Assembly: GCA_004195045.1 (NCBI GenBank) | Contig: SGBC01000001.1 | Location: forward strand, 124,001-188,000 | Origin: Candidatus Acididesulfobacter guangdongensis | GTDB taxonomy: Bacteria; SZUA-79; Acidulodesulfobacterales; Acidulodesulfobacteraceae | Length of the DNA: 64,000 nucleotides | Reading direction: 5' to 3' | Shown: positions 18,565 through 33,848 of the stretch, one piece after another | Layout: every line of letters begins with the position of its first letter | Numbering within the stretch: the first letter of the stretch is position 1 | Translations under genes and position numbers: made by a program | Notes under the pieces: model-generated | Told to the model about the DNA's origin: nothing | What the model saw: only the letters and a program-made list of their open reading frames with translations | The model's database searches: none

Positions 18565-19404
18565 TTACCTGCCCATCATCTGCTGTTGCATATTATTAGT
18601 TTGTTGAATCTGCTGTTGCGTGTTGTTCATCTGCTGCATCTGCTGTTGCGTGTTGTTCATCTGCTGCATCTGCTGTTGCGTGTTGTTCATCTGCTGCATC
18701 TGCTGTTGCGTGTTGTTCATCTGCTGCATCTGTCTTTGTGTATTATTGACCTGATTCATCTGTCTTTGCGTATTATTTACCTGATTCATCTGGTTTTGCA
18801 AAATATGAGTTTTATAAACATTGCCGTTCTCGTTAGTCATATAATTTCCTAATTTTAAACTATGCGTCGTGTTCGGCGTGTTGACCTCAAGAGACAGGGC
18901 ATGATCAACGGTTACGCCGGTTTCAGTTTTATAGACCTCGTTTACCACCTTTAAGTTAACTGCGCCGTTCATTTCTTTAATTACATTTTTAACATTTACA
19001 TCGTTGCCGTTAAGCTGAGATATGGTATTGTTGTCCATCAAATATTTTTTGATAAAGTTTTTTACGTCTGTCTTGTTTACACTGTTAGTATTGTCTTCGA
19101 CTAACTTTATAAAAACGGCATTTCCAACTCCCATGCCTTTTTTCATATATAACTTTAATGCCGAGGGGCTTACCAGAAGCCTTTTTTCGATTTCTAGTGC
19201 CGCTTGTTTATTATTACCGACTTTATTAAGTATCTTTATGTATAACTTTATTAATTTTGCGTCATTATTAATTACCGTTTTGTGCGTAATTTGGGTCGAT
19301 GCCCCGTAAGACGCTCCTGCAAAAACGGACGCAAGTACTGCACTGCCGACTCCTAAAACAATAAAACCAATTAAAAAAACTTTTAAAAATTTTATAGCTT
19401 TCAT
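18565..19404 (-). CDS. Secreted protein with C-terminal Gln/Asn repeat domain
   Basis: 279 residues. The N-terminal membrane/signal segment is FLKVFLIGFIVLGVGSAVLA, with a likely cut after SYGA. Residues about 40-200 form an unrecognised globular domain with Asn/Lys-rich helices. From about 203 to the end the chain is built of a ten-residue repeat, MQQMNNTQQQ and variants (MNQVNNTQRQ), containing no Pro or charged residues except a few Arg. The DNA repeats are 30 bp and three copies are identical, so the array is young. AAAGGAG precedes the ATG. Fur-box-like sites lie in its promoter region. No family recognised; a sticky or fibre-forming domain is an inference from composition. Confidence 0.75.
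   Translation of the reverse strand: MKAIKFLKVFLIGFIVLGVGSAVLASVFAGASYGASTQITHKTVINNDAKLIKLYIKILNKVGNNKQAALEIEKRLLVSPSALKLYMKKGMGVGNAVFIKLVEDNTNSVNKTDVKNFIKKYLMDNNTISQLNGNDVNVKNVIKEMNGAVNLKVVNEVYKTETGVTVDHALSLEVNTPNTTHSLKLGNYMTNENGNVYKTHILQNQMNQVNNTQRQMNQVNNTQRQMQQMNNTQQQMQQMNNTQQQMQQMNNTQQQMQQMNNTQQQIQQTNNMQQQMMGR
18580..18800. repeat. 30-bp tandem repeat array in coding sequence
   Basis: The 30-base unit starting CTGCTGCATCTGCTGTTGCG is perfect at 18631-18660, 18661-18690 and 18691-18720, with degenerate copies on both sides. It encodes the ten-residue Gln/Asn repeat on the minus strand. Confidence 0.9.
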
Positions 19405-20655: not shown

Positions 20656-21999
20656 TCAGTTGGAACTAGACCCTGTTTTACCGGGCGAATCCATATCTTT
20701 TTCATAAAGAATAATCGGCATAGAGTTATTTAATATTACATCGTCATTAATTACGCATTCTTTAATAGTAGAATCGGTCGGGATTTCATACATTATATCA
20801 AGCATAATGGATTCTAGAATAGCTCTTAATCCTCTTGCTCCTGAACCATGTGTAATTGCCTGCTTAGTAATTTCTTTAATAGCCGAATCGGTAAACTTAA
20901 GTTTAACATTTTCCATATCAAATAGTTTCTGATACTGCTTGATTAAGGCATTTTTAGGTTTAGTTAAAATTTCTACCAGCGCTTTTTCATCAAGTTCTTC
21001 TAACGCTGCTATAACAGGAAGTCTGCCGATAAATTCAGGAATAAGTCCGAATTTAAGGAGATCTCTTGCCTCTACTTTCTTAATAATATCGTAAGAATGC
21101 GTTTGCTGTTTTTCTCTTTTAATATTTGCGGTGAACCCTATCGGCTGAGAATTCATTCTTGTTTCTATTAATTTATCAAGACCGGTAAAAGCGCCCCCGC
21201 ATATAAAAAGAATATTTGTAGTATCTATCCTTAAAAACTCCTGATGCGGATGTTTCCTTCCGCCTTTTGGCGGCACATTGGCAACAGTGCCTTCTATAAT
21301 TTTTAAAAGAGCCTGCTGAACACCTTCTCCTGAAACGTCTCTTGTGATAGAAACATTGTCGGATTTTTTTGCTATTTTATCTATTTCATCAATATATATT
21401 ATACCTTTTTGAGCCTTTTCAACATCATAATCGGCATTTTGCAGCAGCGATAAAATAATGCTCTCTACATCCTCGCCGACATAGCCGGCTTCTGTTAAAC
21501 TAGTTGCATCGGCAATAGCGAAAGGGAGTTCAAACATCCTCGCAAGAGTTTCTGCTAATAATGTTTTACCGCTTCCGGTAGGACCTATGAGAAGGATATT
21601 GCTCTTTTGCATTTCCACATCATGAAAAGGATTCCTGTCTTTCGATTCTTTTAACCCTTTATTTTTTTTTAAAGCTGCATTGTATTCAATTCTTTTATAA
21701 TGATTGTATACCGCAACGGAAAGTATCTTCTTAGCTTTGTCTTGACCTATTACATACTGGTCTAAAAAATTTTTAATTTCTGCCGGTTTGTAAATCCGTT
21801 CTTTATCATCTTTCGATTTTAATTCCGCAGCCTCAGGAATTTCTTCCGAAATAATGTCGTTACATAGCTCTATACATTCATCGCATATATAAACCGACGG
21901 ACCAGCTATGAGTTTTTTGACCTCATCCTGTGATTTTCCGCAGAAAGAACAATATAGCTCTCTGCCGCTGCTGTCATCATTATTATTTTTCTTAGCCAT
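20656..21999 (-). CDS. clpX: ClpX, ATP-dependent unfoldase of ClpXP
   Basis: 447 residues. The N-terminal C4 zinc-binding domain has [11 protein letters not shown] then [10 protein letters not shown] (residues about 16-45), which recruits adaptors. The AAA+ module has Walker [12 protein letters not shown], Walker [15 protein letters not shown], and the pore loop [10 protein letters not shown]. The sensor-2/arginine region is [13 protein letters not shown]. An IGF-type loop for ClpP docking is expected near [10 protein letters not shown]: the IGF tripeptide is visible. It lies 13 bp after clpP, in tig-clpP-clpX order. The C-terminal tail ([10 protein letters not shown]) is short and non-conserved. 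Confidence 0.98.
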
Positions 22000-22012
22000 T
22001 TTAATTACCTCT

Positions 22013-22630
22013 TTATTTTTTATCTTTACTATTTATTTCTTTATCTGCACCCTTTTTTTCAACCACTTTGTCTATAATACCGTATTCGACGCTTTGAGCC
22101 CCGCTCATGTAAAAATCTCTTTCTGCATCATCCTTGATTTTTTCAATAGACTGTGATGTGTGAAAAGATAAAATTGAGTTTAATTCTTCTCTCATTCTTA
22201 AAATTTCACGCGCCTGTATATCAATATCGGTAGCTTGACCTTGAAAACCTCCTGACGGCTGGTGAATCATTATCCTTGAATGAGGCAGCGCAAATCTTTT
22301 CCCCTTCGTCCCCGCAGCGAGCAGTACCGCTCCCATACTTGCGGCTTGCCCCATGCAAAGAGTCGAAACATCCGGTCTTATATATTGCATCGTATCGTAA
22401 ATAGCAAGCCCGGAAGTTATAACGCCTCCAGGCGAATTAATATAAATACTTATATCTTTTTCCGGGTCTTCCGATTCTAAAAATAAAAGCTGAGCTATTA
22501 TAAGATTTGCGAATGTATCGTCAATCGCTTCGCCTATAAAAATAATCCTATCTTTTAATAACCGCGAATATATATCGTAAGCTCTTTCACCTCTGTGTGT
22601 CTGTTCAACGACCATAGGGATTAATGACAT
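22013..22630 (-). CDS. clpP: ClpP, proteolytic subunit of Clp protease
   Basis: 205 residues. The catalytic triad is visible: Ser98 in [14 protein letters not shown], His123 in [11 protein letters not shown], and Asp172 in [26 protein letters not shown] is the strand/oxyanion segment. The N-terminal axial loop ([20 protein letters not shown]) matches usual ClpP, with a short propeptide at most. AGGAGA lies 8 bases before the ATG. It lies between tig (234 bp upstream) and clpX (13 bp downstream). Confidence 0.98.
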
Positions 22631-22864: not shown

Positions 22865-24142
22865 TTATACATAAGATATCTTATTTGCAATAATAAAATT
22901 ATATATTTTTTCTTCAAGCATATGATTTTTAAGATTTTCATAATTTTCTTTATCATTTGCATATAGTTTTTTGATTTCTTCAAATTCTAAACCCGACTCT
23001 TTAGACGTTTGGCGGTAAAAATCTTCTATGTCTTTATCGCCGACTTCAATTTTTTCTATCTTTCCTATGTTTTCTATTAAAAGATAAGAAATAATATCTT
23101 TTTTTGCCATAACTTTCAATATATTAAACATATCCTGTTTTTGCTTATCCGTCATTGAAGCATTTTTATATTTTTCGTCTTTCATTAAGTTGTCAAATCT
23201 GGCTCTTGCGTCCTGTTCAATCATACTTTCGGGTATTTCAACCGGATTATTTTTAATTAATTCTTGGGTTATTGCCTCAATGAGCTTCTGCTGCTGTTTT
23301 TTATCTTCATAAGTTTCCAGTTCCTCTCTCAATTTTTTCTTAAAATCTTCTACGCTTTCAAAATCTCCAAAATTTTTAAGTATATCTTCGTTTAAAACTG
23401 GCATAATCTTCTTTTCAATATTTTTAATTATGCCTTTTATAGTAACGCCTTTTTCTTTATCGTCAAATTCAAAACTGTCGCCTATTTTTTTACCGTTAAA
23501 TGACGACTCCAGGTCCTTTTCCGAAGCACCGGAATTGATATTTAACGTATAATCTTTTGCGCTGTCGATAGTATTGTTTTCAGAATCTACGGTAACATAA
23601 TCTATATGGACAAGATATCTGTCGTGTTCGTTAATGGTTTCATCGGCGTTCAATTTAACAGTTTCAGACATTCTTTCAAGAAGGTAGTTAATTTCATCTT
23701 CTAAAACCGCTTCTGTAATTTCTCTTTTTTCAATTTTTTTAATTTTCAAATCTAAATTAACGCTTGATATACTCGGGAGAACTTCAAATCCTATCTCATA
23801 GGTATCTGCCGATAATTCCCTGTCAACGGATGGATTGCCTGCCAGCATAATATTTTTATCGCTCACTAACTTTTTAAAGTCATCATTAAGCACATCCATT
23901 TTAGCTTCTTCTAAAAGTTCTGCTTCATGAAACTTTTTGATTACTGAAATTGGAGCTTTGCCTGGTCTAAAACCTTTTATATTCGCTTTCTTAGCAACTT
24001 CTTTTAATTTTGATTCAACAAGACTGTTGACTTTTTCAGTATCTATCTGTATTTTTACTTTTCTTTTGATAGGAGAAATTTCCTGCACTACAAGTAAATC
24101 TTTGTTCTGCGCTATATCGACATTCCCTGCGTTTTCTTCCAC
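22865..24142 (-). CDS. tig: Trigger factor (ribosome-bound chaperone), GTG start
   Basis: 425 residues. Start is GTG (24142-24140) with GGAGG 8 bases upstream. The ribosome-binding domain contains the signature NIKGFRPGKAPISVIKK (canonical GFRxGKxP), here about residue 54. A PPIase (FKBP-like) domain spans roughly 150-245 and is divergent. The C-terminal chaperone arms are Lys/Glu-rich helices ending with YNFIIANKISYV. There is an N-terminal extension of about 20 residues (NVDIAQNKDLLVVQE) before the usual start of the fold. First gene of tig-clpP-clpX. Confidence 0.95.
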   Translation of the reverse strand: MEENAGNVDIAQNKDLLVVQEISPIKRKVKIQIDTEKVNSLVESKLKEVAKKANIKGFRPGKAPISVIKKFHEAELLEEAKMDVLNDDFKKLVSDKNIMLAGNPSVDRELSADTYEIGFEVLPSISSVNLDLKIKKIEKREITEAVLEDEINYLLERMSETVKLNADETINEHDRYLVHIDYVTVDSENNTIDSAKDYTLNINSGASEKDLESSFNGKKIGDSFEFDDKEKGVTIKGIIKNIEKKIMPVLNEDILKNFGDFESVEDFKKKLREELETYEDKKQQQKLIEAITQELIKNNPVEIPESMIEQDARARFDNLMKDEKYKNASMTDKQKQDMFNILKVMAKKDIISYLLIENIGKIEKIEVGDKDIEDFYRQTSKESGLEFEEIKKLYANDKENYENLKNHMLEEKIYNFIIANKISYV

Positions 24143-24469: not shown

Positions 24470-26434
24470 CTATCCGACAAATATCGGTCTTTTAGACAGC
24501 ATATCGGCAACGTTAAGATTTCTAAAAGGCAAATCTTTGGTCTGGTCTAAAATTTCTTTAACAAGCGCATCTTTGGTCATATTTTCAGTTTTTCTGTCTC
24601 GGTATCTGTTTCTTACGGATAATAAATTTGAGGTTTTTTCTTTTTCGCCTACAACCAAAATGTATGGAACCCAGTCCTCTTCCGCAAACATTATTTTTTT
24701 ACCCATGCTGAAATCTCTATCGTCAATATCAGTTCTTATTTTATACGAAGAAATATTTTTCATTAATTCCGCGCAATATTCCATATATTTTTCAGAGACC
24801 GGTATAATTCTGACCTGTGTGGTACTTAACCATAGAGGTAAAACAGGAATTTCCTTTTTAAGCGCTTCTTCTAAGAGCAGATACATCCAGCGTTCTATTG
24901 TTCCGACTGAAGAATGGCAGATTGTGCATCCCTCTTTTTCGCCTCTTTCATTTACAAAATTGATGCCGTATCTTTCCGCATCAATAACATCTAACTGAAC
25001 GGTTGAAAGCTGACACGAACCCCCGACGGAATCAATTCCTTGAAATTCGTGTTTTAATGCCCAGTAATGTTTCATTTTAGATAGATTTTCAATTAACGCC
25101 GGTTTTTTGGAATATTTTAAAAGGCTGACCAATTTGTCTTTGTATTTATCGTAATATTCCTTAACTATTCTGAATACCACGGCATACTCTATATTAATGG
25201 CATCTGCCAGGTCGGAATACTGTCTGTAAAGTTCCTGATATTCATCGAATCCTTCTTCAATATTGCTGCAAAAACTGTGTATGTCCGGCATCGTAAATGC
25301 CCTCAAACGTCTTAATCCTGAGAGTTCTCCGCTTCTTTCATATCTGAAACTTTTTGAATACTCATAAAATCTCAATGGCAGCTGTTTATAGCTTATCTTT
25401 GCATCTTTAATCATAGAAAATAAACCAAAATCTCCGGCAAATCGCAGCACGAATTCTTTTGTTCTGTCAAAAACAATTGACGCTGAGTCGTCTTTGATTT
25501 TTTCGTCAGGCACCATTATAGTATAATGCCTTTCATGGAAAGATTCGCCTTGTCCTTTGATATCGGGCTTGTTCCAATTATATATCAGAGGGGTTTCTAT
25601 CTCCATACATTTCAGTTTAACTAATGCAATCTCTTCAGCCCAGTCTGAAATAAGTTTATACAGCAAAGTTCCTTTAGGATAAAGCCTTAAATGCCCGGAG
25701 TCTGAATTATCTTCATGGTCGGCAATTTCAAGACGCCGCATCGCTTCGACTGAAGGAGGTTCTGCGCCTTCTTTTACCTTAAATTCTTCAAATGCTATAA
25801 ACTTTTTTAAAGAAGGGTATCTGTTTAATATTTCGCTGTCTAAAATATTTTTATCGTTAATATCTATTGGTATTTCACTGCCGTCCGGATTTAAAATAAA
25901 AAATTCGCTTTCTACCTCTTTTGCAATATCATCCCTGTTTTTAGATTTTGCAATTTTGTTATTAGCGGCATTAACATCCGATGCCCCTGTTCTATTTCCT
26001 GAAGAAGAGACTATATGCCTTGAAGATTCGCTCAGCGGATGACCTTTGCACGCGATAGAAAAACTTTTATACCATCCGAAAGGCGCTCGTTCTATTCGCA
26101 CATACGGCAGCGCATCCTGAAGTTTGTTTTTCAGTCCGTCCAATATTTTTATAGCGTCTGACGGTCTTCCCAAATCATTTGATAAGTGCGCATAAGGATA
26201 TATTATGATGGTAGGCGGTTTTAGTTCGTTGAAAAGTTTTTCGATTTCAATAAGAGCTAAATTTATAATATCATCAGGCTCTGAAGCGTCTGAGCTTTCT
26301 ATGGTGGAAAAAACTACCAATGAATCATTAAAGGTATTACTTTCATGAACACTTTCATCTATTTTCTCAGCCATCGGAGTTTTTCCGGTAAGCCCATAGC
26401 TGAAATTATCGGCGTGAATAAGGAGTAATCTCAT
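24470..26434 (-). CDS. thrS: Threonyl-tRNA synthetase, archaeal type
   Basis: 654 residues. The N-terminal domain starts MRLLLIHADNFSYGLTGKTP and contains IIYPYAHLSNDLGRPSDAIKIL and ERAPFGWYKSFSIACKGHPLSE: this is the archaeal editing domain related to D-aminoacyl-tRNA deacylase, not the bacterial TGS+N2 editing unit. Residues about 150-190 are a low-complexity insert. The class II core has LYPKGTLLYKLISDWA, GQGESFHERHYTIMV, RYERSGELSGLRRLRAFTMPD (motif 2), GGSCQLSTVQLDV and HSSVGTIERW (motif 3). The anticodon-binding domain follows (LPLWLSTTQVRIIPVSEKY). It charges tRNA-Thr and should clear Ser-tRNA-Thr with the archaeal-type domain. A single gene with its own upstream region. Confidence 0.93.
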   Translation of the reverse strand: MRLLLIHADNFSYGLTGKTPMAEKIDESVHESNTFNDSLVVFSTIESSDASEPDDIINLALIEIEKLFNELKPPTIIIYPYAHLSNDLGRPSDAIKILDGLKNKLQDALPYVRIERAPFGWYKSFSIACKGHPLSESSRHIVSSSGNRTGASDVNAANNKIAKSKNRDDIAKEVESEFFILNPDGSEIPIDINDKNILDSEILNRYPSLKKFIAFEEFKVKEGAEPPSVEAMRRLEIADHEDNSDSGHLRLYPKGTLLYKLISDWAEEIALVKLKCMEIETPLIYNWNKPDIKGQGESFHERHYTIMVPDEKIKDDSASIVFDRTKEFVLRFAGDFGLFSMIKDAKISYKQLPLRFYEYSKSFRYERSGELSGLRRLRAFTMPDIHSFCSNIEEGFDEYQELYRQYSDLADAINIEYAVVFRIVKEYYDKYKDKLVSLLKYSKKPALIENLSKMKHYWALKHEFQGIDSVGGSCQLSTVQLDVIDAERYGINFVNERGEKEGCTICHSSVGTIERWMYLLLEEALKKEIPVLPLWLSTTQVRIIPVSEKYMEYCAELMKNISSYKIRTDIDDRDFSMGKKIMFAEEDWVPYILVVGEKEKTSNLLSVRNRYRDRKTENMTKDALVKEILDQTKDLPFRNLNVADMLSKRPIFVG

Positions 26435-26770
26435 ATTTTTGCGTATTAATCTTTCATTATATTATACTGTTAAATTAGATTAAAATAAATATATTTTCCG
26501 GCGTTGCTAAGTTCTATAACATATAGGCTGCCAATGCAGCAGGTTTCATAAATATTATACTTATATAAAAAATAATTTGCAAATAAATTAAACTCAAAAA
26601 AAAATCCCGCCGTTTTTTTAAAACAGACGGGAATATTTAAAATTTATATTTATTCTATTATTATTTATATGAAGATATTTGACATATACCAGCATCCTCA
26701 TTGCTAAAACAAGGGGAGCGGTAAGCTGCTCTGCACATTATTGCTATCGATATCTGATAATATTTCAAAG
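26435..26770. other. Intergenic region between flxA and thrS
   Basis: Contains a strong leftward terminator-like hairpin (26595-26631). Its direction means it would end a leftward transcript entering from thrS's upstream side, or shield flxA; no gene with a ribosome-binding site was seen here. Confidence 0.4.
26595..26631 (-). terminator. Rho-independent terminator
   Basis: On the minus strand CCCGTCTGTTTT pairs with AAAACGGCGGG (26605-26631) and is followed by a run of nine T (plus-strand A-run 26596-26604). It lies about 140 bases past the flxA stop at 26771, so it most likely ends the hdr-flx transcript. Confidence 0.8.
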
Positions 26771-27592
26771 TTAAAAATCGTTAGGCATGGATTCAATCTC
26801 TTTTGCCGTGAAAACAGGTCCTTCTTTGCAGACATAAACGCTGCCTATGTTGCATCTTCCGCATTTTCCGATGCCGCATTTCATTCTGTTTTCAAGAGTT
26901 GTGATAATATCTTCTTTATTAAATCCCATTTTTTCTAAGGACTTTAAAACAAATTTTATCATAATAGGAGGACCGCAGACAACGGCTATTGCATTATTGC
27001 CTTTAACAGGCAGCTCTTCAAGTATAGTAGGAACAAAGCCGACTCTGCCTTTCCAATCAGGCGTTTCTCCCCCCGGGTCTACCGTAATTACAACATCGGT
27101 ATTGGCAAAAGATTTCCATTCTTCAATTGCGTTTTTATACATTAAATCCATAACAGTTTTTGCGCCGTATAATACCGTTATTTTCCCGTAATCATTTCTT
27201 TCGTCTAAGCAATACTCAAGAATTGATTTGACCGGCGCCATTCCGATGCCGCCTCCGATAAATATTATGTCTTTGCCTTTCATTTTACCGGTATCAAAAA
27301 AATTACCGTAAGGACCTCTAAAACCTATGCTGTCTCCAACATTCAAACTGTTGATGCCTGCAGTAGCTCTCCCCGATGTTCTGAAACTGAATTCAAAAAA
27401 TTCTTTTCTCAGGGAAGACGAGGCAAAACCGAATGTAGATTCCCCCTCTCCTACACAGGAAAATTCCCCGAACTGACCTGGCAGATAATCGATGCTCGCG
27501 CCGTCAACCGTGAGTCTAACCGTCTTTGTATCTGGAGTCTCTTGAATTATTTCTTTAATAACCGCCAGCTTAGGCAAATAAATGTTTTCCAT
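26771..27592 (-). CDS. FlxA-like FAD/NAD-binding electron-transfer subunit
   Basis: 273 residues of the ferredoxin-reductase/PyrK/hydrogenase-gamma family. LPGQFGEFSCVGEGEST is the FAD-binding region. IGFRGPYGNFFD follows, then GKDIIFIGGGIGMAPVKSIL, the NAD(P)-binding GGG-x-G segment. A [2Fe-2S] site ends the chain: CGIGKCGRCNIGSVYVC (C-x4-C-x2-C-x(8)-C). AsrB and SulfhydrogenaseG share the architecture, but the neighbours MvhD-like, FlxB/C and HdrABC make it the NADH-oxidising FlxA of a Flx-Hdr complex. Last gene of the cluster; about 140 bases later a terminator follows. Confidence 0.85.
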   Translation of the reverse strand: MENIYLPKLAVIKEIIQETPDTKTVRLTVDGASIDYLPGQFGEFSCVGEGESTFGFASSSLRKEFFEFSFRTSGRATAGINSLNVGDSIGFRGPYGNFFDTGKMKGKDIIFIGGGIGMAPVKSILEYCLDERNDYGKITVLYGAKTVMDLMYKNAIEEWKSFANTDVVITVDPGGETPDWKGRVGFVPTILEELPVKGNNAIAVVCGPPIMIKFVLKSLEKMGFNKEDIITTLENRMKCGIGKCGRCNIGSVYVCKEGPVFTAKEIESMPNDF

Positions 27593-27779
27593 TTCAAATC
27601 CTTATTAATTATATGTCTTAATTGATTTTAATTTAACTTAACTTGCTTTATATTCATTGCGTTATATCATCTATTAATATTTACTTTATAGTTATTGTAT
27701 TTACTTTAATTCTAGTTATTCTATATATTTAATAACATTCAAATCTGAATTATAATTAAACCTTACACGAATAAGATTA

Positions 27780-28874
27780 TTAATCCTCCGCTGAATTTTC
27801 CATAAGCGACAATTCTGAAGTTATTTCTCTCAAATCTATGTCTTCAGGACAGTTTCTTGAGCATCTGCCGCATCCCACGCATAAATATTTATTAAACTTT
27901 TCATTGTATATTTTAAATTTATGCATAAGTCTCTGCCTGTATCTGTCTCCCTGCGTCACTCTAGGATTGTGTCCCGACGTGTGCAGCGTGAATATTCCAA
28001 ACTGGCAGGAATCCCAGTTTCTTATCCTTTTACCCTTTTCGTTGGTTCCCTCATCCTGAATATCAAAACAATGGCATGTCGGGCAGGTATATGTGCATAT
28101 ACCGCATCCAATACACGATAAAAACTTTTCCTGAAAATAGCTGCTCGTAAAATTCTTATCAAGAAAACCTTGAGTTTTTTTAATGTCAAACGCAGCTTTC
28201 CAGTCTTTATCGGCAGGAAACGCTTCTTTTGAAATTTCTTTAAACAAACCGGCGTTTTCAGAAGTTGAATTTATAAGCTCCAATCCTTTCTCGGTCATTA
28301 CTTTGGCGTAATAGCCGCTGCCGCCTTTTTTAAGCAGAATATCGGAACCGTAGGAACTTTCCGGTGACAGCTGAGCTTCTGTGCAAAAGCAGTAATTATC
28401 CGGCTGAACGCATGCAATAGATATTATATATAAATTTTTAAATTTTTCATTAAAAAATTCGTCTTTATAGTCCCAGTTGAAAACTTTTTCCATAATAGGT
28501 CCTGCACCCGCATCGCACGGTCTTGAACCGAATATTATTCTCTTCCCGATTTTTTTGCCGCTGTTTCCGGTGCCACCGCTTCCGTTATTGATACCGCCAT
28601 CAGCGCCGGCATTTTCTAATGGGTCTATGATATTAATATTACTGCCCGAAATGGAGTATTCAAATAATGTTTCTGTTTTTGGAAGCAAATATTCTTTAAA
28701 AGACAGTTTAGGAAGCAGGATATTTAAATCTGCATCTTTAAAATCTGTTATTTTATCATAAAATGTATCGCCGTCTTTATCTTTCGGAGCTATTACTTCG
28801 TTATTCTGCACAACTAAATTATTTACAAATTTTTCTATGTTGTCCGAAGAAATTTCATAATATTTTTCTTCCAT
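27780..28874 (-). CDS. FlxB-like/AsrA-like iron-sulfur protein
   Basis: 364 residues. The N-terminal two-thirds resembles AsrA and hydrogenase beta/HydB-type proteins: FGSRPCDAGAGPIMEKVFNW, NLYIISIACVQPDNYCFCTEA. Two C-terminal [4Fe-4S] ferredoxin motifs are present: CIGCGICTYTCPTCHCF and CVGCGRCSRNCPEDID. These proteins relay electrons between the flavin subunit and others. A Gly/Asn-rich stretch (NAGADGGINNGSGGTGNSGK, about residues 85-104) is an extra low-complexity insert. It sits between flxA (187 bp) and flxC (159 bp). The subunit name rests on the cluster context. Confidence 0.82.
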   Translation of the reverse strand: MEEKYYEISSDNIEKFVNNLVVQNNEVIAPKDKDGDTFYDKITDFKDADLNILLPKLSFKEYLLPKTETLFEYSISGSNINIIDPLENAGADGGINNGSGGTGNSGKKIGKRIIFGSRPCDAGAGPIMEKVFNWDYKDEFFNEKFKNLYIISIACVQPDNYCFCTEAQLSPESSYGSDILLKKGGSGYYAKVMTEKGLELINSTSENAGLFKEISKEAFPADKDWKAAFDIKKTQGFLDKNFTSSYFQEKFLSCIGCGICTYTCPTCHCFDIQDEGTNEKGKRIRNWDSCQFGIFTLHTSGHNPRVTQGDRYRQRLMHKFKIYNEKFNKYLCVGCGRCSRNCPEDIDLREITSELSLMENSAED

Positions 28875-29033
28875 AAGCTGTTTTCTCCATCAAGAATATT
28901 AATTTACGGAATATTTCCGTATATATCTTTTATTTATGTTTGTTTATTTTAACTTAAATCTATCTAATTTAAATTTACCTAATTTAAACCTATATATTTT
29001 AATTCTTTATTCATTATTCTTAATTATTATTTA

Positions 29034-29933
29034 TTATTTTATAAATTCATTGAAATCATTAGCGTCAAATGTACCAAAAACCGGTTTAGCGTTTATATCT
29101 ACGCCTGATTTATAGCCAAATTTTTCAAAGACGTCTCTTGCCATTTTCTCATTTACAAGCATAAGAGGTATATTCACCGGACATGCTCTTTCGCATTCGC
29201 CGCAGCCGATACATCTGCCGGAAAGATGGTAAGCCCTAATCATATTCCACTGAGCGTTACCTGTTTCTTCTATATTAGTTTCAATCCATTGCGGTGTATT
29301 TTTTTCTACTATGCATCTTGTGCAGTAGCATAAGGGACAAGCCTGCCTGCATGCATAACATTTTATGCATTTCTCAAATTCTTTCTGCCAAAACATATTT
29401 CTGTCTTCAACACTCATGGCGTCAAGTTCTTCTATTTTTGCATAAGGCTTAATGTCTCCGTTTATTTCAAAAGCAGGTTCATCCGATTCGACAAGATAAT
29501 CATAAAGCAGAGGGGTATGTACCTCGCACGCTAAGCATTTATCGTAAACGGTAGATTGTTTAACAGAATCTTCTCCTCTGTCAGCCAAGTTTTGCTTCAC
29601 GACTCCGCGGCATTCAACCCCGATAATTTTTATGTTATCTCTTGAAAGCTGATATTCCTGAATTAAAGTATTGACCGCTTTTTCATCGCATCCTTTAACA
29701 ACGAGCCCGACTTTTCCGAATTTTTTTACTTCCGGTTTTTTTAAGAAAACAGCTAAATCCTGAACGCAGTGAGCATTGAAAGATAATTTAGATACATCGT
29801 TAGGGTCGGTTATAAAAACGGAACGCATTCTTAAAGGATTAGACCCTTTAGTAAAACCTATAATTAAATTTACTTCTTTATTTTCTAAAAGTTCTTTTGC
29901 GGTATTTTGCAGTTTATCATTCATTTTTTCCAT
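29034..29933 (-). CDS. FlxC-like [4Fe-4S] protein
   Basis: 299 residues. The N-terminal half resembles the coenzyme F420-hydrogenase beta-like/FlxC fold (IIGFTKGSNPLRMRSVFIT, KVGLVVKGCDEKAVNTLI, IIGVECRGVV), with isolated Cys in YDKCLACEVHTPLLYD. Two ferredoxin-type clusters follow: CIKCYACRQACPLCYCTRCI and CIGCGECERACPVNIPLML. It should bridge FlxB and the HdrA core. The start uses MEKMNDKLQ; an alternative ATG is the fourth codon. Spacers to neighbours are long (142 and 159 bp) and consist of TTATTGATTGCATTATTTA repeats. Confidence 0.82.
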   Translation of the reverse strand: MEKMNDKLQNTAKELLENKEVNLIIGFTKGSNPLRMRSVFITDPNDVSKLSFNAHCVQDLAVFLKKPEVKKFGKVGLVVKGCDEKAVNTLIQEYQLSRDNIKIIGVECRGVVKQNLADRGEDSVKQSTVYDKCLACEVHTPLLYDYLVESDEPAFEINGDIKPYAKIEELDAMSVEDRNMFWQKEFEKCIKCYACRQACPLCYCTRCIVEKNTPQWIETNIEETGNAQWNMIRAYHLSGRCIGCGECERACPVNIPLMLVNEKMARDVFEKFGYKSGVDINAKPVFGTFDANDFNEFIK

Positions 29934-30075
29934 AAGATATATCCTGTTTGGGCTGATGTTATATATTATTGATTGTATTATATATATTCCTATTTACTTT
30001 AGCTAAATTGCACAAGCTGATGTTATTTATATATATTATTGATTGCATTATTTATTGATTGCATTATTTATTTAA

Positions 30076-30576
30076 TTATTTTTTACTGAATATATCGCTG
30101 TTGTCCTGCAATGATTTTATTTTATCTGTAAATTCATTTATAACTGAAACCCATTTATTCCCCTCGGACGCGCTTATCCACGAGAATTCTACTCTGTTTA
30201 TATCAACTCCCAAATAGCTCAGTAAATCCCTGAATGCAGTATATTTCCTTCTTGAATGGTAATTACCGCTGGTATAATGGCAATCACCAGGATGACATCC
30301 TGAAACTAACACGCCCTTTGCGCCTTTTTTAAACGCTTCCACAACAAACAGCGGGTCTATTCTGCCTGTACACGGCAATTTAATTACCCTGACATTTTCA
30401 GCATATTTCATTCTGCTTGTTCCTGCCAGATCCGCCCCGTTGTAAGTACACCAGTTGCAGACAAAGGCAATTATGCGCGGCTCTTTATCTTTAGCTGTGC
30501 CCGCCGAATATTCTTTATTATTCCGGTCGTTCTGAACATCTTCGACTATATTGTTTTCCATGTAAATCTGCTCCAA
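30076..30576 (-). CDS. MvhD/FlxD-like delta subunit (iron-sulfur)
   Basis: 166 residues. PRIIAFVCNWCTYNGADLAGTSRM then RVIKLPCTGRIDPLFVVEAFKKGAKGVLVSGCHPGDCHYTSGNYH are hallmarks of the MvhD/FrhD family (CNWC, LPCTGR-x-D, GCHPGDCHY). The protein holds a [2Fe-2S] cluster and links the electron input module to HdrA. An N-terminal 30-residue extension (EDVQNDRNNKEYSAGTAKD) is extra. It is directly downstream of hdrA (132 bp), as in Flx-Hdr and Mvh-Hdr operons. Confidence 0.9.
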   Translation of the reverse strand: MEQIYMENNIVEDVQNDRNNKEYSAGTAKDKEPRIIAFVCNWCTYNGADLAGTSRMKYAENVRVIKLPCTGRIDPLFVVEAFKKGAKGVLVSGCHPGDCHYTSGNYHSRRKYTAFRDLLSYLGVDINRVEFSWISASEGNKWVSVINEFTDKIKSLQDNSDIFSKK

Positions 30577-30708
30577 TGTATGTTTAACAATTATTCAAAT
30601 ATATCAGTAAGGTATCAATTGTATATTTATTTATATTAACTATTAAATTTATTTATAAATATAACTCCTAATGTAATTTTAAATATATATTGCACGTTTG
30701 CGCACTCT

Positions 30709-32691
30709 TCAAACGGCAAGAGATTTTATCTCCGCAAAAATCTGCTCGTCTAAATAGCCTTTTAAGTCAATTGATTTAGAAAAACATGCATTTACGCAAG
30801 CGCCGCATCCTGCGCATAATCCTGAATTAACATTTGCGACAACCTTTAAAACATTGCCGTTTCTGTCCTTAATTTCTTCTTTGCTTATTGCGCTGTATGC
30901 GCAGACTCTCCTGCAGTAAAAACATCCCACGCACGTCGTCTTATTAACAGAAGCAATCGTTCCTTCAACTTCATACTCGCTTTTTGAAAATAGTCCAAGT
31001 ATTTTAGACGCTGCTGCAGAACCGGAAACAACCGATTCGGGAATATCGCGCGGACCCTGCGCCATTCCTGCAAGATATATGCCTGCAGTTGAAGACTCGG
31101 CGGGACGAAGTTTAGGATGAGATTCAGTATAAAAACCATATTTATCGTATGAGATACCGAGCATTTGCGCCATCTTATCGGAACCTTTTTTAGGTATAAC
31201 GCCGGTTGCAAGAACAACCATATCGGCAGCAATTTCAACCTGATTTCCGGACAGCGTATCCGCACCTTTGACAATCAGCTTTCCATTGTCTTCGTATATC
31301 TTGGAAACCCTGCCCCTTAAATATATAGCGCCTTCATTTTCCATCGTGCCTCTGACAAATTCTTCATAACCTTTGCTCGTTGCCCTTATGTCTATATAGA
31401 AAACATAGCTTTGAGAACCATGAACCTTGTGCGCAAATAATTTTGCGTGTTTAGCCGTGTACATGCAGCAAACTTTTGAACAGTAAGGAACGCCTTTTTC
31501 AGGGTCTCTTGAACCGACGCATTGAATAAAAACAATCGTCTCAGGTGTTTTGCCGTCTGACGGTCTTTTAACAACGCCTTCGGTAGGTCCGGAAGCCGAT
31601 AAAAGCCTTTCAAACTGCAGTCCTGAAATCACGTCTTTAAATTGACCATAGCCGTATTCGCCGTATAAAGAATTTTCCATTAAATCATAACCTGTTGCGG
31701 CAACAATAGCGCCTACTTTTTCTTCTATTATCTCATCCTGCAAATCAAAATTTATACATTTAGGTCCGCAGGCATCGTAACATTTTTGACATTTGCCGCC
31801 TTTTTTATAATGCAGGCAAACACTTCTGTCTATGACCGGAATTAACGGAACCGCTTGCGGAAACGGAACATAAATAGCAGTCCTTTCGGATAGATTAACA
31901 TTAAATTCACTTTTTACATTTTTATGCATAGGACAGATATTCCAGCAGTCTCCGCAGCCTGTGCAATCTTTTTCGACTATGCTTCTCGCCTTCTTTTTTA
32001 TTTTTACATTAAAATTTCCTATATAGCCGGAAACTTCTTCTAATTCGGAATATGTGTAAAGTTTTATATTGGGATGCTGATATACTTCTACCATTTTAGG
32101 AGTCATTATGCAGCTTGAGCAGTCGAGAGTAGGAAATGTCTCATCGAGCTGTATCATTTTCCCGCCGATAGAAGGCTCTTTTTCAACAAGAATAACCTCG
32201 ACGCCGCCGTTGGCAATGTCAAGTGCAGCCTGTATTCCTGAAATACCGCCGCCTATAACAAGCGCTTTTTTCGTTAGAGGGACCCTTACATCTTCAATAG
32301 GTTTGTTCTTCTTTACTTTTTCAACCATCATTTTCAAGAGGTCTATTGCTTTTTCCGTCGCCTTTTCTTTATCTTCATGCACCCATGAAACCTGTTCTCT
32401 GATATTTGCTATTTCAATAAAATAAGGATTAAGACCTTCTTTTACGGCAGCTTTCCTGAATGTATTTTCATGCATGTGCGGAGAGCAGGCGGCAAGAACG
32501 ACTCCCGTGAGATTTTTATCTTTAATCATTTTTCTCAAGGTATTTTGCCCAGGGTCGGAACACATATACTTGTAATCAACCGCTTCGACAACTCCCGGGA
32601 TTTTAGCAGCCTCTTCGGCTACTCTTTTAACGTCTACGGTTCCCGCAATATTAGAACCGCACCAGCAAACAAATACTCCTATTCGTGCCAT
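30709..32691 (-). CDS. hdrA: HdrA, flavin-containing bifurcating subunit of heterodisulfide reductase
   Basis: 660 residues. The N-terminal ferredoxin-like insertion domain starts MARIGVFVCWCGSNIAGTVD, containing Cys in CWCG; MCSDPGQ and ACSPHMHE follow. The FAD-binding fold begins at ALVIGGGISGIQAALDIANG. CIMTPKMVE and DCTGCGDCWNICPM add a [4Fe-4S] site in the middle. A second FAD segment is TGVIPKK ... ESSTAGIYLAGMAQGPRDI. C-terminal ferredoxin pair: CVGCFYCRRVCAYSAI and CAGCGACVNACFSKSI. The layout matches full-length bifurcating HdrA (about 650 residues). It is downstream of hdrB across a 290-bp spacer holding repeat R2. Confidence 0.95.
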   Translation of the reverse strand: MARIGVFVCWCGSNIAGTVDVKRVAEEAAKIPGVVEAVDYKYMCSDPGQNTLRKMIKDKNLTGVVLAACSPHMHENTFRKAAVKEGLNPYFIEIANIREQVSWVHEDKEKATEKAIDLLKMMVEKVKKNKPIEDVRVPLTKKALVIGGGISGIQAALDIANGGVEVILVEKEPSIGGKMIQLDETFPTLDCSSCIMTPKMVEVYQHPNIKLYTYSELEEVSGYIGNFNVKIKKKARSIVEKDCTGCGDCWNICPMHKNVKSEFNVNLSERTAIYVPFPQAVPLIPVIDRSVCLHYKKGGKCQKCYDACGPKCINFDLQDEIIEEKVGAIVAATGYDLMENSLYGEYGYGQFKDVISGLQFERLLSASGPTEGVVKRPSDGKTPETIVFIQCVGSRDPEKGVPYCSKVCCMYTAKHAKLFAHKVHGSQSYVFYIDIRATSKGYEEFVRGTMENEGAIYLRGRVSKIYEDNGKLIVKGADTLSGNQVEIAADMVVLATGVIPKKGSDKMAQMLGISYDKYGFYTESHPKLRPAESSTAGIYLAGMAQGPRDIPESVVSGSAAASKILGLFSKSEYEVEGTIASVNKTTCVGCFYCRRVCAYSAISKEEIKDRNGNVLKVVANVNSGLCAGCGACVNACFSKSIDLKGYLDEQIFAEIKSLAV

Positions 32692-32981
32692 AATATATTT
32701 ACCTCAGTATAAAGTATAAATAACAAACAAATTTAATTTCATAATACGCAATATATTTAATTTAATTTCGGAAAAGGTGTCAGATTAATTTTTTTGCAAA
32801 TATTTTCTTTGTTAATTGAACTACTCCATATGCAAAAAAATAAAATCTGACACCTTTTCCTTATATTTTGCTTAACCTAGCAAAGAAATACATAAATATT
32901 TTCTATTGCAGGATTAAGAATATAAAAACATAATAATAAATACCGGTATAGCGTATAATTAATAATAAAAAATAATAAAAC
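32692..32981. other. Spacer between hdrB and hdrA
   Basis: Filled for half its length by repeat R2 (32770-32917). The rest is A+T-rich. If hdrB and hdrA share a transcript, the hairpin is part of it. Confidence 0.6.
32770..32917. repeat. Palindromic repeat family, copy R2, inside the hdr-flx operon
   Basis: GGAAAAGGTGTCAG at 32770-32783 and CTGACACCTTTTCC at 32847-32860 are inverted, with an imperfectly paired interior carrying AATTGAACTACTCCATATGC. It continues through TTTTGCTTAACCTAGCAAAG and ends with TTTCTATTGCAGGATTAA (32900-32917), the right terminal repeat of the longer family elements. The left terminal repeat is missing. Confidence 0.85.
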
Positions 32982-33848
32982 CTACGATATTTTTTTCAGT
33001 ACTTTATCGGCATTTACCATATGTCCGCCAATAGCCAGTTCCTCCGGGGAAAAACCGAAAGCAAGCCCCAGAAGTTCAGTAATAAACAGAACAGGCAGCC
33101 CTATCCTTTCCGCATATTTTCTTTCTATCTCTCTCTGTCTGACATCAAGATTAGAATGACATAACGGACAGGCAACGACTACGAGGTCGGCGCCGTGTTC
33201 TTTAATATCATATAAAATCTTTCCTGTTAAAGCCATAACAACGTCAGGTTTTGACAGCGAATTAATAGCTCCGCAGCACTCTGTTTTGTAAGAATAGTCT
33301 ACCGGAACGGCTCCTGTTAAAGCTACTAATTCATCCATCGATGCCGGTCTGTCGGGGTCGTCAAACTTCATGACCTTAGGCGGTCTTACTAAAAGACATC
33401 CGTAATACGATGCGACTTTTAAACCTGACAGAGGTTTTTTAACCAGCGATTTTATTTTTTCTTTACCTGCCACGTTAATTAAGAACTCAAGCATATTAGA
33501 GATATTAAGGGAATTGCTGTAAGGCATTTCTAATGAATCCGTTATCTTCTTCTTTAGGATATCGTCTAAACCCATTTCATATTTTGCCGTTTTTAATCTG
33601 CTTGAACAGGCGGCGCAAGGCGCCAGCACTTCTTCAAAACCGTTGTTTTCGGCAATTGCAAGATTTCTTGCAGGAAGAGCTACGGACAAATTATGATTCA
33701 GACTATGCGCGGCGGAAGCTCCGCAGCAATTCCAATCGGGAATTTCCTGAATTTCAATATTTAATGCTTCTAATATTTTTAAAAGAGATACTTCATATTC
33801 AAATGATGTCCCTTTAAGACTGCATCCGGGATAATATGCAAGTTTCAT
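32982..33848 (-). CDS. hdrB: HdrB, disulfide-reducing subunit of heterodisulfide reductase
   Basis: 288 residues with two complete CCG domains. Domain 1: YYPGCSLKG (C9), WNCCGASAAH (C41, C42), APCAACSSR. Domain 2: YYGCLLVRP, KTECCGAINS, ACPLCHSNLDVRQ. These eight-plus Cys bind two noncubane [4Fe-4S] clusters at which a disulfide such as a CoM-S-S-CoB analogue is reduced. The length is standard. It is preceded by hdrC (234 bp) and followed by hdrA. A second HdrB-like protein is at 59100-59990 but belongs to the succinate/fumarate cluster. The physiological disulfide in bacteria is not known. Confidence 0.95.
   Translation of the reverse strand: MKLAYYPGCSLKGTSFEYEVSLLKILEALNIEIQEIPDWNCCGASAAHSLNHNLSVALPARNLAIAENNGFEEVLAPCAACSSRLKTAKYEMGLDDILKKKITDSLEMPYSNSLNISNMLEFLINVAGKEKIKSLVKKPLSGLKVASYYGCLLVRPPKVMKFDDPDRPASMDELVALTGAVPVDYSYKTECCGAINSLSKPDVVMALTGKILYDIKEHGADLVVVACPLCHSNLDVRQREIERKYAERIGLPVLFITELLGLAFGFSPEELAIGGHMVNADKVLKKIS

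Follow-up and report, generated by a model that had tools for sequence, protein, structure and literature searches.

The sole threonyl-tRNA synthetase (ThrRS) of Candidatus Acididesulfobacter guangdongensis is of the rare archaeal form (ThrRS-R), and it very probably came from an archaeon carrying a subtype of that form with Asp at a zinc-ligand position (Asp-type), before the bacterial phylum of this organism diversified, with loss of the native thrS. ThrRS is a core gene that is often assumed to follow domain lines. The gene and the domains of its product occupy the following positions in the window, which is the whole stretch of 64,000 nucleotides that was analysed:

24470..26434, minus strand: thrS, encoding a ThrRS-R of 654 amino acids, the only ThrRS of the genome (ORF, Pfam, NCBIfam, AlphaFold2 model and Foldseek)
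26012..26434, minus strand: DTD-like N-terminal editing domain, residues 1-141 (Pfam and alignment)
24866..25462, minus strand: class II catalytic core, Pfam residues 325-523 (Pfam and alignment)
24545..24817, minus strand: C-terminal anticodon-binding domain, residues 540-630 (Pfam)

The open reading frame is intact and starts with ATG. Pfam placed the editing domain tRNA-Thr_ED (PF08915) with E=1.2e-41 and 142.5 bits, against a cut-off of 30.2, followed by PF00587 for the core and PF03129 for the anticodon domain; no Pfam match to TGS or tRNA_SAD was found in the window ThrRS. The NCBIfam model of archaeal-type ThrRS (NF003068) scored 638 bits with a cut-off of 484, and the general thrS model (TIGR00418) 381 bits, slightly under its cut-off of 383.65. 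The editing domain is closest to solved archaeal ThrRS N-terminal domains, such as that of M. jannaschii (4rrf, E=3.6e-30), and the closest solved structures for the remainder are bacterial ThrRS catalytic domains; the top Foldseek matches of a metal-free AlphaFold2 model (mean pLDDT 84) were likewise the catalytic domains of E. coli ThrRS. Our results confirm two readings of the first-pass annotation, namely an archaeal DTD-like editing domain, whose quoted motifs are present and with which the PF08915 and 4rrf matches agree, and a catalytic core of archaeal pattern, for which NF003068 lies far over its cut-off and a core tree groups the protein with archaeal ThrRS-R. Domain order, editing positions, catalytic motifs and single-copy state are those of the known ThrRS-R (NF003068; PMC3191353, PMC4427996), but these were described from archaeal lineages only, whereas the window gene is bacterial, fixed in its phylum and of the Asp subtype. 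Compared with the common ThrRS (TIGR00418; E. coli 1qf6), the class II core and the anticodon domain are homologous, whereas the window enzyme has another editing domain, no TGS match in Pfam and Asp in place of Cys334, and its gene falls on the opposite side of the ThrRS tree.

The genome (2.2 Mb in 5 contigs, 99.2% complete) contains one match to PF08915, and the only full-length match to TIGR00418 is the window thrS, the others being weak and partial, such as related class II synthetases would give. The TIGR00418 profile detected no bacterial TGS-type thrS in this genome, nor was a bacterial thrS found in six relatives, representing the other five genera of the phylum and a second genome of the same genus, where ThrRS-R is again the only full-length TIGR00418-type gene. 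In eight bacterial genomes whose only PF08915 matches are free or otherwise placed editing domains, the same search scores the bacterial thrS at 588-770 bits. The first-pass annotation had proposed that the archaeal gene replaced the native one and that a second thrS be sought; with none detected across all six genera, ThrRS-R being the only ThrRS found, the replacement stands. Across the phylum, Candidatus Acidulodesulfobacteriota (GTDB SZUA-79, six genera), 27 of 30 genomes have PF08915; these include every one of the 19 with a completeness of 90% or more, and the three that lack it are each 59-78% complete. The event thus spans the phylum, and calling the transfer old was justified. The phylum lives in acid mine drainage and in further acidic and marine settings (PMC11382960). 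A same-genus locus is that of Candidatus Acididesulfobacter diazotrophicus AP1, a genus which NCBI places in Candidatus Acidulodesulfobacteriota. In one phylum genome (G025), two contigs each carry a complete thrS locus with the same neighbours (L104, L105), which probably reflects a bin that combines two strains.

Around thrS, the window contains the following elements:

20656..22630, minus strand: clpX and clpP, conserved downstream neighbours
22865..24142, minus strand: tig, encoding trigger factor, conserved downstream neighbour
26554..26583, minus strand: sigma-70-like promoter TTTGCA-18-TATAAT upstream of thrS (consensus match only)
26771..33848, minus strand: conserved upstream cluster of NAD/FAD oxidoreductase, Fe-S and Hdr-like proteins

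In the loci fetched from six genera, followed to the contig ends, the order hdr/oxidoreductase cluster, thrS, tig, clpP, clpX, hup is constant, and the GC and GC3 of thrS are close to those of its neighbours. Together with the presence of the gene throughout the phylum, this shared order and composition indicate that the gene was acquired before the sampled members of the phylum diverged, and that we are dealing with one old, fixed replacement. The neighbours are bacterial, as had been noted (ClpX, ClpP, trigger factor and HU), but the description of the locus as an operon is not supported: 327 nt separate thrS from tig, and thrS has an apparent promoter of its own behind a terminator-like hairpin with a T-run, seen by eye near 26595-26632. 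An Rfam scan of the thrS locus gave no match to a leader or T-box. Further along the minus strand, at 18565-19404, the window encodes a secreted-looking protein of 279 amino acids with a C-terminal tandem repeat of the QQMQQMNNTQ type.

Phylogenetic analysis supported the archaeal origin put forward earlier, since both full-length and core-only trees place the gene within archaeal ThrRS-R and not among bacterial ThrRS. In an 83-row tree of full-length sequences the phylum forms one clade, joined by 15 archaea (a starred branch, 99), one of them named 'Thermoplasmata archaeon nzgw66' (G292/L128), and then by the archaeon L143. A 51-row tree recovers the phylum as monophyletic (100/100), joins it to 13 archaea (100/100) and then to L143 (98/95), and gives no resolved order inside the Asp-type clade. 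The core-only tree, rooted on bacterial ThrRS, shows the same grouping among archaeal ThrRS-R (starred, 100), and an editing-domain-only tree, built as a check for a chimera, holds too little signal to tell a separate history apart. In an aEF-2 tree, 15 of the 16 Asp-type archaea fall in a single Thermoplasmata-containing clade, L143 (named Thermoprotei, Asp-type) being placed outside it. That clade mixes Asp-type archaea with carriers of another ThrRS-R subtype, and at least five switches of ThrRS-R type are needed to account for its starred branches, meaning that the Asp subtype is patchy within it, as are the ThrRS homeoalleles of Andam and Gogarten (PMC3191353). The subtype of the window gene is therefore found elsewhere almost exclusively in the Thermoplasmata-containing archaeal clade (100/100, 98/95). 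Because the backbone inside the Asp-type subclade has no resolution, the donor can be placed only to that subclade and not exactly; if the direction of transfer is as we suppose, it was most likely a relative of Thermoplasmata.

Full-length ThrRS-R also occurs in six genomes of four families among the 261 bacterial genomes outside the phylum, and no bacterial thrS was found in those six. The genes of two families (f66 and f69) branch at other points of the archaeal tree, each close to different archaea, and those of the other two (f120 and f206) on a separate long branch; a single origin of the phylum gene with f66 and f69 was rejected (AU test, p=2.2e-5). These separate placements and the rejection lead us to conclude that ThrRS-R replaced bacterial ThrRS at least two times, and probably three. 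Genomes G148 and G285 (L223-L226, L230) carry, besides a full-length ThrRS-R, PF08915 fused to a SepRS-like synthetase (tRNA-synt_2d) resembling the published ED-SepRS, and G285 additionally has a free editing domain. Eight other genomes (G041, G255, G272, G200, G258, G076, G270 and G134; L227-L229, L231-L235) combine a bacterial thrS with short ORFs that match PF08915, most of them editing domains standing alone. Free archaeal ThrRS-ED and bacterial ED-SepRS fusions (PMC5424206, PMC8762117) share PF08915 with the window enzyme, which, unlike them, has the ThrRS core.

The four further bacterial families would fit a ThrRS-R that was ancestral in Bacteria, retained here and lost in others. The bacterial copies, however, do not form one clade with that of the phylum, the grouping of the phylum gene with f66 and f69 is rejected, and it sits within the Asp-type archaeal subclade, so that we regard such an ancestry as highly improbable. 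Transfer of the entire archaeal threonine identity set (thrS with a U73 tRNA-Thr), or its co-evolution, is also very unlikely. It finds support in the three tRNA-Thr genes of this genome, all U73 like the tRNA-Thr seen across the phylum, and in the reported reliance of archaeal editing on U73 (PMC8762117). But in our pattern survey about 140 of the 261 bacteria outside the phylum have a U73-CCA tRNA-Thr, only four of 20 others, chosen for lacking the exact U73-CCA pattern and without an editing-domain gene, carry A73 in any tRNA-Thr and the rest show U73, and the Pyrococcus editing domain removes Ser from E. coli tRNA-Thr (PMC4491819). A switch of tRNA-Thr identity through U73 was dropped as an explanation, U73 being widespread in bacteria; it is a permissive background and no mark of transfer. 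With tRNA-Thr that was already U73, as in most bacteria sampled, replacement of the synthetase required no redesign of the tRNA. The archaeal TyrRS and TrpRS of CPR bacteria offer a parallel case of archaeal-type synthetases in bacteria, but there the tRNA identity is archaeal too (PMC5370408), whereas the window ThrRS needed no such change. The tRNA-Gly and tRNA-Cys of this genome likewise have U73; given the U73 of tRNA-Gly, an editing domain that reads this base could in principle act on Gly-tRNA-Gly, which tethering to ThrRS may limit.

The direction of the transfer might also be the reverse, the Asp-type enzyme having been born in these bacteria and passed to Thermoplasmata-related archaea, since the phylum is perhaps sister to the 13-15 archaea and not nested among them (90 in the 83-row tree and 89 in the core-only tree, not resolved in the 51-row tree). 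We consider this unlikely, because the Asp-type archaeon L143 branches outside these bacteria and archaea together (98/95), the phylum genes are far less divergent among themselves than the archaeal ones, and the surrounding ThrRS-R tree is archaeal. Lastly, most genomes are MAGs, which raises the question of an archaeal contig introduced by assembly or binning. The thrS gene lies in a 906-kb contig amid bacterial genes with a GC near theirs, it occupies the same place in 27 genomes, and the gene order around it is alike in the fetched loci of all six genera; this synteny across the phylum refutes contamination, whose probability is practically negligible. Under the preferred reading, acquisition from an Asp-type archaeon, the gene would have been in place already in the common ancestor of all Ca. 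Acidulodesulfobacteriota, and the TGS-type thrS that it replaced would have been lost. The acquired enzyme is predicted to charge the three tRNA-Thr isoacceptors with threonine at its class II site, and its archaeal DTD-like domain to clear mischarged Ser-tRNA-Thr in cis.

The window protein also carries the residue that gives its subtype its name:

25424..25453, minus strand: residues 328-337, FVLRFAGDFG, with D335, the Asp-type signature (alignment)

D335 aligns with Cys334 of E. coli ThrRS, whose zinc ligands are C334, H385 and H511 (PMC4041444), and the local sequence reads LRFAGDFGLF against the usual LRFAACFGQF. In place of the Cys/His/His ligands expected of a ThrRS, the window protein has D335/H386/H507, the two His positions being kept. 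All 28 phylum sequences have RFAGDF, the archaeal subclade has RFA[GAS]DF with Asp in 16 of 16 archaea, and almost all other ThrRS-R, like bacterial ThrRS, have Cys at the equivalent position. About 30 positions distinguish the Asp subtype from other ThrRS-R, and the Arg of motif 2 (R364, R376) and motif 3 (R515) are invariant throughout the aligned sequences. Asp also occupies the zinc-ligand position in the archaea L304 and L311 and the bacteria L223 and L225, in differing contexts (LRFSADFGQF, LRYASDPLGF), which suggests that the Cys-to-Asp exchange probably occurred more than once. Residues 503-507 read CTICH; Cys503 is found in 14 of the 16 Asp-type archaea and in the whole phylum, Pro being found there in other ThrRS-R, and Asp-type enzymes often also have Cys506, adjoining H507, with a possible effect on the metal site.

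As this is the only ThrRS, threonine charging must be able to proceed with Asp at this position, and, judging from the alignment, the metal that reads threonine would be bound by D335/H386/H507 and not by Cys/His/His. That Asp-type ThrRS-R form a distinct functional class, with an Asp/His/His metal and possibly a changed metal or selectivity, is a tentative proposal that we consider less likely than not. The editing residues named in Pyrococcus act with a catalytic group given by the tRNA, the side chains being largely dispensable (PMC4491819), and P80, A82, H83, Y120, K121 and E134 of the P. abyssi domain correspond to P80, A82, H83, Y122, K123 and E136 in the window ThrRS. Editing by bacterial ThrRS needs C182, which is oxidised by air and H2O2 (PMC4041444), and Acidulodesulfobacterales in acid mine drainage express oxidative-stress genes (PMC6776010). 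A fitness gain from ThrRS-R under oxidation is a reasonable but speculative idea, and one that is weakened for the zinc site by the resistance of E. coli C334 to oxidation (PMC4041444). Should the class be real, its Asp site combined with Cys-free editing catalysis would make a ThrRS of little thiol chemistry that is spread in archaea related to Thermoplasmata and has become fixed in a bacterial phylum whose acid habitats are oxidising and rich in metals. A natural Cys-to-Asp swap at the threonine-reading zinc site is directly testable.

In published trees every bacterial ThrRS is of the common form and ThrRS-R occurs in archaeal lineages only (PMC3191353, PMC4427996), which makes the phylum a genuine exception. 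It is apparently an unreported one, a provisional statement, as in the open-access papers that our search covered we found neither the Asp variant nor a bacterium described as using ThrRS-R for its threonyl-tRNA synthesis. What is new here is the Asp subtype with its donor subclade, the Cys-to-Asp exchange at a zinc ligand and the replacement in four other bacterial families. A published argument for genes from pre-LUCA lineages draws on how narrowly ThrRS-R is distributed among archaea, and an exception that spans a bacterial phylum, along with those in other families, alters the distribution on which that argument is based.
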